From: an uncultured Pseudomonadota bacterium
GTDB taxonomy: Bacteria; Pseudomonadota; Gammaproteobacteria; Steroidobacterales; Steroidobacteraceae
Direction: 5' to 3'
NCBI GenBank assembly: GCA_903885195.1
Contig: CAISHQ010000087.1
Location: 21,135 to 85,134 of the forward strand
Length of the DNA stretch: 64,000 nucleotides
Shown: positions 16,057-28,934 of the stretch, piece after piece
How positions within the stretch are numbered: position 1 is the stretch's first letter
Layout: the number at the start of each line of letters is the position of its first letter
Translations under genes and position numbers: made by a program
The notes under the pieces: model-generated
What the model was told of the DNA's origin: nothing
The model's input: the letters and a program-made list of their open reading frames with translations, nothing else
Databases searched by the model: none

Positions 16057-16062
16057 TAGAAT
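16057..16062 (+). promoter_or_regulatory. -10-like TAGAAT exactly 6 nt before the M1 peptidase ATG
   Basis: CCGTTAGAATCCGCTCATG; no SD. Confidence 0.5.
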
Positions 16063-16068
16063 CCGCTC

Positions 16069-18540
16069 ATGAAACACGCCCCCCTCGCTCTGGCCGGGTT
16101 GCTGGCCGTCACCCTCCTTCCGGTCACCGCCCCCGCGGCCGTCAAAACCACGCCCGGGCAGGCCGACCAACGCTTCGCCCAGCTCGAGCAGTTATTGCCA
16201 ACGCCGAACACCGTTCGGACGGCATCGGGCGCGCCCGGCGCACAGTACTGGCAGCAACGCGCGGACTACCGCATCAAGGTGACGCTCGACGAAACGCGTC
16301 ATCGGCTCAAGGCTCGCCAGAGCATCACCTACATGAATCGCTCGCCGGATACGCTCTCGTACATCTGGCTGCAGCTTGACCAGAACATCTTCAAGGACGA
16401 TTCGATCTCCAGGCGCTCGGAGGTCGCATCCAACTCGGGGACGCGGCGCGACTCGATCGGCGCCGGCGACAGCCTGAGTTTTGCGGCGCTCCGACGTCAC
16501 CACGCGTTTGAGGACCGCAAGTACGGCTATGAGATCGGCCCCGTGCGTGATGCCGGCGGACGAGTGCTGCGTACCACCCTCAACGACACCATGCTGCGCA
16601 TTGATCTGCCGCAGCCGCTGCGCCCGGGTACCAGCATCGAGATCAACTTCGACTGGGAATCGAACATCGTCGACGAAGCCCCCATCGGCGCCCGCGGCGG
16701 TTACGAGCACTTTCCCGACAGCAACACCTACCAGCACTTCCTCGCGCAATGGTTTCCGCGGCTGGTCGCCTACACCGACTACACGGGCTGGCAGCACAAG
16801 CAGTTCCTGGGTCGCGGCGAATTCACGCTCGAATTCGGTGACTACGACATCGAACTGACGGTCCCCGCCGATCACATCGTGGCCTCGACCGGCGTGCTGC
16901 AGAACCCGGATGCCGTGCTGACGGCGACGCAGCGGGCGCGTTTGAAAAAGGCCGAGACGGCCAAGAGCCCGGTGTTCATCGTCACTCCGCAAGAGGCGGT
17001 GGAGAACGAAAAGACCGGTACCAGCCAGATGCGCACCTGGCGATTCAAGGCCGAGAACGTCCGCGACTTCGCCTGGGCGAGCTCGCGCAAGTACATCTGG
17101 GATGCGATGGGCTATCGGCAGAACGACGCCAAGCAGCCGTTCGTGATGGCGATGTCCTTCTACCCCAACGAAGGTGAGCCCATCTGGTCGAAGTATTCGA
17201 CCCACGCGGTGATCCACACCATGGAGGTGTATTCACGCTTCTCCTTCCCCTATCCCTATCCGGTGGCCATCTCGGTCAACTCCTGGGAACGCGGTGGCAT
17301 GGAGTATCCGATGATCACCTTCAACGGCTACCGGCCGACGCGGGACGAGAAATCGGGCAAGCTCACTTACTCGCGCAACACCAAGTACGGGCTGATCGGC
17401 GTGATCATTCACGAGATCGGCCACATCTATTTCCCGATGGTCGTCAACTCAGACGAACGTCAGTGGACCTGGATGGACGAGGGTCTCAACACCTTCCTCG
17501 AATACATCGCAGAGCTCGAGTGGGAAGAGAACTTCCCGACCTTCGGCGACAAGACCAACGTCCTCGACTTCATTACCGGCTACATGCAGTCGCAGGATCA
17601 AGTGCCGATCATGACCAACTCCGACACCATCGTGCAGTTCGGTCCCAACGCCTACTCGAAGCCCGCCGCCGCGCTCGCGGTGTTGCGCGAGGCCGTGATG
17701 GGCAGGGAACTGTTCGACCACGCGTTTCGTGAATACTCCAACCGCTGGAAGTTCAAGCGACCGACGCCGGCCGACTTCTTCCGCACCATGGAAGATGCCT
17801 CCGGAGTCGATCTCGATTGGTTCTGGCGCGGCTGGTTCTACGGCACGGACTACGTCGACGTGTCGGTCGGCGACATGCGCGCGTATCAGATCTCGTCGCA
17901 GGATCCGGAAACGGAATTTCCGCTGCGCCGCGCCGAGTTCGCGGCCAACTGGCCAGAGTCGTACTCACAGCGACAAAACCGCGCCGAGGGCCGCCAGACC
18001 CGTGTTGATCGTTATCCGGAGCTCAAGGACTTCTATAACGAAAACGATCCGTTCGTGGTCAACAACAAGGACCGCAATCAGTACAAGGAATTTCGCGACA
18101 AGCTCGAAACGTGGGAGCGCACTGCGCTCGATCGTGCCATCAAGGCGGGCGAGCACGTGCATTTCGTCGACTTCCACAATCTTGGCGGACTTGTCACGCC
18201 GCTGCCCCTGACGCTGACCTTTGCCGACGGCAGCACCGAGGAGTACCAGGTGCCCGCCGAGGTCTGGCGCTACAACGCCGAGAAGGTGACGAAGCTCTTT
18301 ATCCGCAAGCAGCGCCTCGTGAGTGTCGAACTCGACCGAAGCCATCTGATCGCTGATGCGGACAAGAGCAACAACATCACGCCTCGACGCATCGAGCAAA
18401 GCCGTATCGAACTGTTCAAGGGGCGCGACAGCGGCCGTAATCAGATGCTCGACGCGCTGGCAGAGTTGAAGGGTGAGCCCAAGAGCGGCGAGAAGACCGA
18501 GACGAAGGCGCTGCCCTTGCAGCCCGCTCCGCCGAAGTGA
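16069..18540 (+). CDS. M1 family metallopeptidase
   Basis: GGMEYPMI plus HEIGH-x18-E zinc motif. Confidence 0.93.
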   Translation: MKHAPLALAGLLAVTLLPVTAPAAVKTTPGQADQRFAQLEQLLPTPNTVRTASGAPGAQYWQQRADYRIKVTLDETRHRLKARQSITYMNRSPDTLSYIWLQLDQNIFKDDSISRRSEVASNSGTRRDSIGAGDSLSFAALRRHHAFEDRKYGYEIGPVRDAGGRVLRTTLNDTMLRIDLPQPLRPGTSIEINFDWESNIVDEAPIGARGGYEHFPDSNTYQHFLAQWFPRLVAYTDYTGWQHKQFLGRGEFTLEFGDYDIELTVPADHIVASTGVLQNPDAVLTATQRARLKKAETAKSPVFIVTPQEAVENEKTGTSQMRTWRFKAENVRDFAWASSRKYIWDAMGYRQNDAKQPFVMAMSFYPNEGEPIWSKYSTHAVIHTMEVYSRFSFPYPYPVAISVNSWERGGMEYPMITFNGYRPTRDEKSGKLTYSRNTKYGLIGVIIHEIGHIYFPMVVNSDERQWTWMDEGLNTFLEYIAELEWEENFPTFGDKTNVLDFITGYMQSQDQVPIMTNSDTIVQFGPNAYSKPAAALAVLREAVMGRELFDHAFREYSNRWKFKRPTPADFFRTMEDASGVDLDWFWRGWFYGTDYVDVSVGDMRAYQISSQDPETEFPLRRAEFAANWPESYSQRQNRAEGRQTRVDRYPELKDFYNENDPFVVNNKDRNQYKEFRDKLETWERTALDRAIKAGEHVHFVDFHNLGGLVTPLPLTLTFADGSTEEYQVPAEVWRYNAEKVTKLFIRKQRLVSVELDRSHLIADADKSNNITPRRIEQSRIELFKGRDSGRNQMLDALAELKGEPKSGEKTETKALPLQPAPPK

Positions 18541-23975: not shown

Positions 23976-24617
23976 TCAGTGGGTGCGGGAAAGATCCCGT
24001 GCTTGAGCCAGCACCTCGCGAAACATCTCCGGCGTTAGCCGCCGCGTCTGGGTGTTGTAACGGCTGCAATGATACGAATCGAGCAGCCAGCGATCGGACC
24101 CGAGCGCATGACGGGCCGCGTGCGCAAAGCGGAACTTGCCGCGCGGCAGCGCGAGCGCATCGAGCACCGCATCGTGGGCGATCCGACCAAGCGCCACCAC
24201 CACCCGCACGGTGTCGTGCGCCGCGAGTTCGGCGCGCAGAAACGCGTTACAGGTGCGTATCTCCGCCGGCGTAGGCTTGTTGGCGGGCGGCAAGCACTTG
24301 ACGGCATTGGTGATGCGCACCCCGGTGAGCTGCAGACCATCGTCGCGCGACACAGAGACCGCGGCGCTTGAAACGCCAAGCGCATGCAGGGTGTCGTAGA
24401 GCAGGATGCCGGCGTGATCCCCCGTGAAGGGTCGACCGGTGCGGTTGGCGCCGTGCAAGCCCGGTGCAAGGCCCACGATGAGCCACCGGGGTGCCGCATC
24501 GCCGAATGCCGCGACGGGCGCCGCGTGGTAACCGGGGTAACGCTCCCCCGTCGACTCGCAGAACGTCGCGAGCCGCGGACAGCGCCGACATTGCGGATCG
24601 AACAGTGCGTCGGCCAC
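23976..24617 (-). CDS. Uracil-DNA glycosylase superfamily protein (family 5-like)
   Basis: CRRCPRLATFCE, GLAPGLHGANRTGRPFTGDHAG, HCSRYNTQTRRLTPEMF; GTG start near 24617. Confidence 0.85.
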   Translation of the reverse strand: MADALFDPQCRRCPRLATFCESTGERYPGYHAAPVAAFGDAAPRWLIVGLAPGLHGANRTGRPFTGDHAGILLYDTLHALGVSSAAVSVSRDDGLQLTGVRITNAVKCLPPANKPTPAEIRTCNAFLRAELAAHDTVRVVVALGRIAHDAVLDALALPRGKFRFAHAARHALGSDRWLLDSYHCSRYNTQTRRLTPEMFREVLAQARDLSRTH

Positions 24618-24619
24618 GA

Positions 24620-25948
<1,329 letters not shown>

Positions 25949-25950
25949 GG

Positions 25951-25989
25951 AGAATCCGCGCCCCCGGCTGCTGCGAGGGCGCGGATTCT
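25951..25989 (-). promoter_or_regulatory. 13-bp perfect stem-loop immediately upstream of icd start codon
   Basis: AGAATCCGCGCCC (25951-25963) and GGGCGCGGATTCT (25977-25989) are exact reverse complements, 13-nt loop; ends 2 nt before the icd ATG. Confidence 0.75.
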
Positions 25990-26006
25990 ACCCGAGCCTC
26001 GCTCGC

Positions 26007-27293
<1,287 letters not shown>

Positions 27294-27347: not shown

Positions 27348-28934
27348 TCAATCGAGCTCGCGATACGCCGCAAGCGTCAAAAACGTGGCGAACTCGGACG
27401 CCGTGGTGATGCCATCGAGCAGCGCCGCAGCCTGCTCGTAGCGGCCTGCCGCATAAGCCGACTCACCGAGCCACTGGCGCAATCGCTGCTGCTCCGCAGC
27501 CAGTTCTGCCCGGAACAACTCCGCGGTGATCTTGCGACCATCCTCGAGCACCCCGCGCGGGTGGTGGATCCACTGCCAGATCTGCGCGCGGGAAATCTCG
27601 GCCGTGGCCGCGTCTTCCATCAGGTTGTTGATCGGCACGCAGCCGTTGCCGCACAACCACGCAGCCATGTACTGCAGCGACACGCTGATGTTGTCGCGCA
27701 GACCCTCCGTGCTGATCGCACCACTTGGGATCTGCAACAGGTCCGTGGCCGCGACCTGCACGTCCTCGCGCAGGCGGTGTAACTGGTTGGCCGTCGGCAT
27801 GAGGCGATCGAACACGTCCATCGCCACCGGCACGAGCCCGGGGTGCGCCACCCAAGTACCGTCATGCCCGTCGCCCGCTTCGCGTTCCTTGTCCGCTCGC
27901 ACTTTGGCGATCGCAGCCTCGTTGGCCACCGGGTCGTGCTTGATCGGGATCTGCGCCGCCATGCCGCCCATCGCGAATGCGCCGCGCCGATGGCAGGTAC
28001 GGATGCAGAGCAGCGAATAGGAGCGCATGAAGTGGGTCGTCATGGTCACGAGCCGACGCTCGGGCAGCACGAAGTCGGCTCGTTTCGCGAACTTCTTGAT
28101 GAAGCTGAAGATGTAATCCCAACGCCCGCAGTTCAGTCCGACGATGGAGTCGCGGAGTTCAAAGAGGATTTCGTCCATCTCGAACGCCGCGAGTATCGTC
28201 TCGATGAGCACGGTGCATTTGATCGTGCCGTGCGCCAGACCGAGGCGCCGCTCGGTGAAATCGAACACCTCGGCCCACAAGCGCGCCTCGCGGTGACTCT
28301 CAAGTTTCGGCAGGTAGAAGTACGGTCCCGTGCCGCGCTCGCGCAGCGCCGCGTGGTTGTGAAAGACGTACAGCCCGAAATCGACGAGAGCGCCCGGCAC
28401 AGCCCGCCCATCGTGCAGCAGGTGCTTTTCTGCGAGGTGCCAACCCCGCGGGCGCACGATAAGCACAGCGGTCTCCGCGTTGAGCCGATACGCTTTGCCC
28501 TCCGCGGAGGTGAAGTCGATACGCCGCAGCACGGCATCGCGAAGGTTCGCCTGACCGCCGATGACGTTGTCCCAGGACGGGGCAAGCGAGTCCTCACAGT
28601 CGGCCATGAATACTTTGGCGCCGCTGTTGAGGGCATTGATGATCATCTTCCGATCGGTGGGACCGGTGATTTCCACGCGCCGATCGAGCAGATCGGCCGG
28701 AATGCCCGCGATGCGCCATTCGCCCTCGCGAACCGCGCGCGTCTCGGCGAGAAAATCGGGTAGTTCACCGGCATCGAGGCGCTGCTGGCGTTGCTCGCGG
28801 GCGCGTAGCAACTGCTCCACCCGCGGAGCGAAACGCGCGGCGAGCTCTGCGAGGAAGCCCAACGCCTCAGTGGTCAGGACTCCTTCGTCCGCGGGGCGCG
28901 CCCGAGTTCCGCTCGCCAATTCAATTGTCGACAT
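27348..28934 (-). CDS. aceB: Malate synthase A
   Basis: TDRKMIINALNSGAKVFMADCEDSLAPSW, GRWDYIFSFIKKF, GDGHDGTWVAHPGLVPVA. Confidence 0.97.
   Translation of the reverse strand: MSTIELASGTRARPADEGVLTTEALGFLAELAARFAPRVEQLLRAREQRQQRLDAGELPDFLAETRAVREGEWRIAGIPADLLDRRVEITGPTDRKMIINALNSGAKVFMADCEDSLAPSWDNVIGGQANLRDAVLRRIDFTSAEGKAYRLNAETAVLIVRPRGWHLAEKHLLHDGRAVPGALVDFGLYVFHNHAALRERGTGPYFYLPKLESHREARLWAEVFDFTERRLGLAHGTIKCTVLIETILAAFEMDEILFELRDSIVGLNCGRWDYIFSFIKKFAKRADFVLPERRLVTMTTHFMRSYSLLCIRTCHRRGAFAMGGMAAQIPIKHDPVANEAAIAKVRADKEREAGDGHDGTWVAHPGLVPVAMDVFDRLMPTANQLHRLREDVQVAATDLLQIPSGAISTEGLRDNISVSLQYMAAWLCGNGCVPINNLMEDAATAEISRAQIWQWIHHPRGVLEDGRKITAELFRAELAAEQQRLRQWLGESAYAAGRYEQAAALLDGITTASEFATFLTLAAYRELD

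Follow-up and report, generated by a model that had tools for sequence, protein, structure and literature searches.

The 64,000-nucleotide stretch analyzed here (the window), from an uncultured member of the Steroidobacteraceae, carries a long perfect hairpin in the short spacer between the isocitrate lyase gene aceA and the isocitrate dehydrogenase gene icd, which raises the question of what such a structure does immediately in front of a start codon. The spacer measures 58 nt from the aceA stop to the icd ATG and reads, on the minus strand, ...CTCGGGT-AGAATCCGCGCCC-TCGCAGCAGCCGG-GGGCGCGGATTCT-CC-ATG. The stem is perfect in 13 of 13 pairs around a 13-nt loop, with the icd ATG 2 nt past its 3′ arm, exactly as a preliminary description of this DNA had stated, and one 13-mer matches both arms exactly. 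The same description placed the hairpin over the translation start region of icd, which is borne out by the 3′ arm, as it holds a GGA and lies 2 nt from the ATG. The Pfam assignments listed in Table 1 support the calls of icd, aceA and aceB, a gene of the uracil-DNA glycosylase (UDG) superfamily comes after icd, and no mobile features were seen in the genes around the site.

Table 1. Coordinates of the genes, hairpin parts and promoter features at the aceB-aceA-icd locus, numbered from the first letter of the window
Feature	Positions	Strand	Remarks
aceB, malate synthase	27348..28934	-	PF01274; opens the probable aceBA unit, 54 nt before aceA
aceA, isocitrate lyase	26007..27293	-	PF00463; proposed source of read-through RNA
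-10-type box of icd, TAGAAT	25985..25990	-	five of its six bases (25985-25989) within the 5′ arm
5′ arm (AGAATCCGCGCCC)	25977..25989	-	-10 box plus G+C-rich discriminator
Inferred icd transcription start	25978	-	7th nt after the box, from the 6-nt box-ATG spacing of the family
Loop, 13 nt	25964..25976	-	length and sequence differ among relatives
3′ arm (GGGCGCGGATTCT)	25951..25963	-	holds the sole Shine-Dalgarno-like motif, GGA, 6 nt upstream of the ATG; covariation with the 5′ arm
icd, isocitrate dehydrogenase	24620..25948	-	PF00180; second ICDH paralogue of the genome
UDG superfamily gene	23976..24665	-	PF03167; ORF limits, true start uncertain

The stem is both stable and rare. The 111-nt hairpin region was predicted to fold at -49.4 kcal/mol, compared with -38.4 kcal/mol (sd 3.45) for shuffled sequences, none of which was as stable (z -3.2, 0/200), so that RNA folding agreed with the structure initially described. 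In a count of perfect stems with loops of 3-25 nt, for which 400 kb of a congener served as the background sample, the 64-kb window yielded the icd hairpin as its only stem reaching 12 bp, compared with seven such stems in the congener; stems of at least 13 bp numbered one and two, respectively, and one of the latter two was the orthologous site. An Rfam search returned no match to the hairpin at E <= 1, which gives no sign of a riboswitch or another curated RNA family. Moreover, a simple scan retrieved zero terminator-like sites, none separating aceA from icd, and no U-tract follows the stem; a simple intrinsic terminator was consequently rejected, as had already been suggested from the letters of the spacer.

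The hairpin was conserved among relatives, many of which are represented by fragmented and incomplete assemblies. It was present in 16 of 17 leaders of the genus, comprising 11 icd leaders and six further leaders behind aceA. When the 5′ part of each leader (box and discriminator) was kept fixed and the 3′ part was shuffled, 10 of the 11 icd leaders folded better than their shuffles (p <= 0.006); the exception, L010, had no stem (p = 0.84) and showed a strong but separate hairpin ahead of the box. All of the six further leaders (L151-L155 and L158) had the stem. Four of them precede a UDG gene, and in three of these four the 3′ arm extends into the ATG; of the remaining two, one precedes icd and the other an icd remnant. 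When the arms were aligned in 12 rows, pair 12-25, at the sixth discriminator position, occurred as C-G, G-U, G-C, A-U and U-A and was paired in 12 of 12 rows; the percentage paired in this alignment is biased, the arms having been trimmed by hand with pairing in view. The covariation score of this alignment was 0.229 versus 0.124, with 0 of 500 shuffles as high, and it exceeded that of every slid register, whereas the number of pairs changed on both sides did not go beyond shuffles (107/500). Shuffling with a fixed 5′ part is a cleaner test of the stem than the hand-cut arm alignment. The covariation in relatives that the preliminary description had suggested looking for was thereby found.

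Since the clades of the genus are about 80% identical in aceA DNA, conservation of the hairpin is not mere recent ancestry, even with many forks of the tree left unresolved. A chance self-complementarity between the G+C-rich discriminator and its surroundings, inherited in close relatives, might be suggested by the G+C-richness of the sequences and by the close relatedness of the three nearest genomes. It is, however, extremely unlikely and already nearly refuted, because 16 of 17 leaders have the stem even though their arms have changed, all of the shuffle tests back it and it is unique in the genome.

A feature overlooked in the preliminary description is the TAGAAT box, similar to a -10 element and followed by a G+C-rich discriminator, inside which the 5′ arm begins. 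A two-hexamer σ70 promoter scan of the hairpin region scored no site, because there was no -35 match, and no clear -35 element was seen upstream of the icd box; TAGAAT was recognized as a promoter box from its conservation among relatives and not from the scan. In fact, a TANAAT motif within the 60 nt before the icd ATG was carried by 10 of the 11 members of the genus, by 25 of 48 members of the rest of the family and by four of 12 more distant loci, mostly from other families of the order; the numbers expected from shuffles were 0.0, 0.5 and 0.2, respectively.

Outside the genus but within the family, the distance between the end of the box and the icd ATG was exactly 6 nt for 22 of the 25 box-bearing loci, and the icd mRNAs of such loci are probably leaderless, with the A of the ATG as their first base. 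Judging from this spacing, leaderless icd mRNA appears to be widespread in the family. Because the same 6-nt spacing was so common in those loci, we infer that icd transcription in the window starts near 25978, within the hairpin. The leader from this predicted start would be 30 nt long and would keep just 2 nt of the 5′ arm. Some further observations concern boxes of this type. Among the loci L111-L150, from other genera of the family, those with a box at the 6-nt distance present TACAAT or TAGAAT before icd, often in the context TTGCCGGTACAAT. Elsewhere in the window, at about 16058-16072 on the plus strand, TAGAATCCGCTCATG shows the same type of promoter; its box is followed 6 nt later by an ATG, a further candidate for a leaderless start.

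The inverted repeat could alternatively act at the DNA level, either by binding a dimeric regulator as an operator that overlaps the -10 box or by serving as a bidirectional promoter. The arms do form a perfect inverted repeat over that box, and pseudo-symmetric promoters are common. Nevertheless, this explanation is quite improbable, given that the arms changed by compensation and that their spacing varied (the distance from box to ATG was 26-40 nt), which would be intolerable for a sequence-specific dimer; a protein operator is unlikely for the first of these reasons. The bidirectional promoter was rejected, since the reverse complement of the 3′ arm had no -10 box in several species (L007, L008 and L009).

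We consider it moderately probable that the icd hairpin is a promoter-in-hairpin translational insulator, working like that of T4 gene e. Under this proposal, the own promoter of the downstream gene would supply the 5′ arm, through its -10 box and discriminator, and the 3′ arm would cover the start region. Putative read-through RNA from aceBA would contain both arms and fold into a stable stem, so that the start of icd (or of UDG) would be hidden and remain untranslated. Conversely, a start inside the hairpin implies that the gene's own transcript lacks nearly all of the 5′ arm, and the full stem could therefore be formed solely by the read-through aceBA-icd RNA, while the RNA from the internal promoter would be open to ribosomes. 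The downstream gene would thus follow its own promoter only and not the upstream aceBA unit, being probably translatable only from own-promoter messages and not from the run-on of the upstream gene.

The predicted energies are consistent with such an effect on translation. Opening the start region (-15 to +6) was 5 to 15 kcal/mol dearer in the read-through RNA than in the own-promoter RNA in 16 of 17 leaders; the extra cost was 9.3 kcal/mol in the window and 1.8 kcal/mol in L010. The own-promoter RNA keeps some residual structure, which would take about 6-14 kcal/mol to open. Moreover, GGA is a weak Shine-Dalgarno match, and translation of the own-promoter RNA may consequently be independent of it. 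The leaderless arrangement of other genera may insulate icd differently, as a run-on RNA would present no Shine-Dalgarno sequence at the start.

The most serious rival is that the hairpin belongs to the 3′ end of the aceBA mRNA, where it could act as a terminator (weak or assisted by Rho), block exonucleases or, as a ribosome termination structure (RTS), prevent re-initiation beyond the aceA stop codon; its overlap with the box would then be an economy of space. In the window the hairpin lies about 18 nt past the aceA stop, a short U-run (ATTTTT) occurs at the end of the stem in L004 and L005, and RTSs are common in bacteria (PMC7518266). Similarly, in the related genus g14 (L012 and L111) the icd -10 box, which is 6-7 nt from the ATG, was directly preceded by strong hairpins behind aceA; these hairpins may represent another way of parting aceA from icd.

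However, the position of the stem across the genus points elsewhere. The distance from the aceA stop to the stem ranged from about 15 to 97 nt, and the stem was always placed between the box and the start codon; in L006, L008 and L011 the stop was about 55-97 nt upstream, yet the stem was still at the ATG, and in L151, L152 and L158 the 3′ arm included the A and T of the ATG itself. The stem thus tracks the start codon, and its position is not fixed relative to the upstream stop codon, as it would be in an RTS. Furthermore, the U-tract is missing in most members (L001, L007, L008, L011 and L151) and the terminator scan was negative. A 3′-end function leaves the start-codon tracking and the location of the box within the stem unexplained, and it is rather unlikely; as the sole explanation, an RTS or other 3′-end function was rejected, the position following the start codon and not the stop.

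What the hairpin serves was further indicated by genomes in which icd is gone. In L151, L152, L153 and L158 icd is cleanly absent and aceA is directly followed by the UDG gene, the start of which is preceded by the same box and hairpin. Similarly, L154 (G004:C54:2136-2411) retains only an icd remnant, matching residues 1-41, 319-360 and 422-442 with large internal deletions, and its promoter and hairpin are intact. With icd lost from between aceA and UDG, the promoter and hairpin that once preceded icd now stand immediately before the UDG gene. The hairpin tracks the start codon, and neither aceA nor icd. The maintenance of the element after the loss of icd separates insulating the next gene from regulating icd.

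These observations bear directly on the idea, raised in the preliminary description, of an isocitrate branch-point switch, in which a regulated RNA structure would adjust the translation of icd relative to aceA as the metabolic state changes. The hairpin does lie over the icd start, and the gene order is aceB-aceA-icd, with aceA preceding icd on the same strand in all 11 icd loci of the genus examined. Still, congeners without icd retain this hairpin in front of UDG, the 5′ arm is promoter sequence and is probably absent from the icd mRNA, and neither an Rfam match nor a ligand-binding architecture was found.

Moreover, the genome encodes another ICDH, 61% identical, as part of an overlapping gene pair with aceK (L197, G000:C16:15000-19300; a 435-aa ORF overlapping the 596-aa aceK ORF). 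This gene presents a promoter-like TAAAATCCGC box of the same kind as that of icd and an ordinary AAGGAG Shine-Dalgarno leader, which has no hairpin like that of icd. AceK exerts the classical branch-point control and acts on the ICDH protein; the aceK-linked ICDH is thus the usual place for such control, to which the icd hairpin has no tie. A branch-point switch is accordingly very unlikely. The Icd protein of the window reads GTAPGFAG at the cofactor-determining site, the counterpart of GTAPKYAG in E. coli Icd, in which K344 and Y345 determine the cofactor, and the cofactor use of this paralogue may differ from that of the E. coli enzyme.

The preliminary observation was therefore confirmed and its interpretation partly supported. 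A structure controlling translation stands insofar as it acts after aceA, probably by silencing the read-through mRNA, and falls as a branch-point switch; control of the icd transcript itself is disfavored by the likely start inside the hairpin, an outcome that the preliminary description had itself named as contrary to its proposal.

The arrangement is also singular in the genome. The box-plus-hairpin pattern occurred once in the window genome (G000), where the same architecture was not found elsewhere, and the icd hairpin was the outlier among 40 box/start pairs in 464 kb. In 24 genomes of the genus there were 12 matches to the pattern, 10 of which were this site. The other two, G008:C107 and G003:C51, have their ATG at 6 nt from the box, like the plus-strand candidate of the window, and look leaderless.

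Returning to the translational insulator, it is quite possible, though put forward here tentatively, that this lineage evolved a chromosomal promoter-in-hairpin, kept by compensatory mutation, which restricted translation of the gene behind aceBA to messages from that gene's own promoter, replaced a leaderless arrangement and outlived the gene it first served. If so, same-strand bacterial neighbors would be uncoupled purely in cis without a terminator, the promoter sequence itself being the antidote to translation of run-on mRNA. Such a chromosomal case in central metabolism, supported by covariation, would provide a searchable signature, with a -10 box in the 5′ arm and a start codon at the 3′ arm.

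Several known systems resemble this arrangement to different extents. Intrinsic terminators share a G+C-rich stem after a gene and differ in the U-tract, which is absent behind the stem in the window and in most relatives; the terminator scan was likewise negative. RTSs are stable mRNA structures between a stop and the next start that act as translational insulators (PMC7518266), but they are defined relative to the stop codon, whereas the icd structure keeps its place relative to the -10 box and the following start codon. Searches of the literature for promoters in hairpins returned phage cases only, with no chromosomal precedent, and a search on the aceA/icd intergenic region retrieved no title or abstract on this structure.

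In the fold-back inhibition of IS10/Tn10, read-through RNA from outside sequesters the transposase start, and transcripts of the internal promoter are without the 5′ arm. This is like the case proposed for icd, in which the read-through RNA would hide the start and the gene's own RNA would be devoid of the 5′ arm; the IS10/Tn10 arms, however, are the ends of a mobile element, and nothing mobile was seen around icd. The closest likeness is with the T4 lysozyme gene e, in which the start region of long transcripts coming from upstream folds into a hairpin and translation of these transcripts is poor, while a promoter in the 5′ strand of the inhibitory hairpin gives rise to short, translatable mRNAs (PMC3014915); soc, 49 and I-TevI are further T4 genes of this kind (review PMC3014915). 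There is no homology between gene e and the icd site, and gene e uses a phage late promoter (TATAAATA, recognized with a phage sigma factor) and has a role in lysis timing, whereas the icd site carries a σ70-type -10 box, is chromosomal and lies behind a metabolic operon. In both, the promoter is found in the 5′ strand and the start region in the hairpin, the former being recognized at icd by purely sequence-based marks (TAGAAT, the conservation of the box and the 6-nt calibration) and the latter by the GGA within a 3′ arm lying 2 nt from the ATG.
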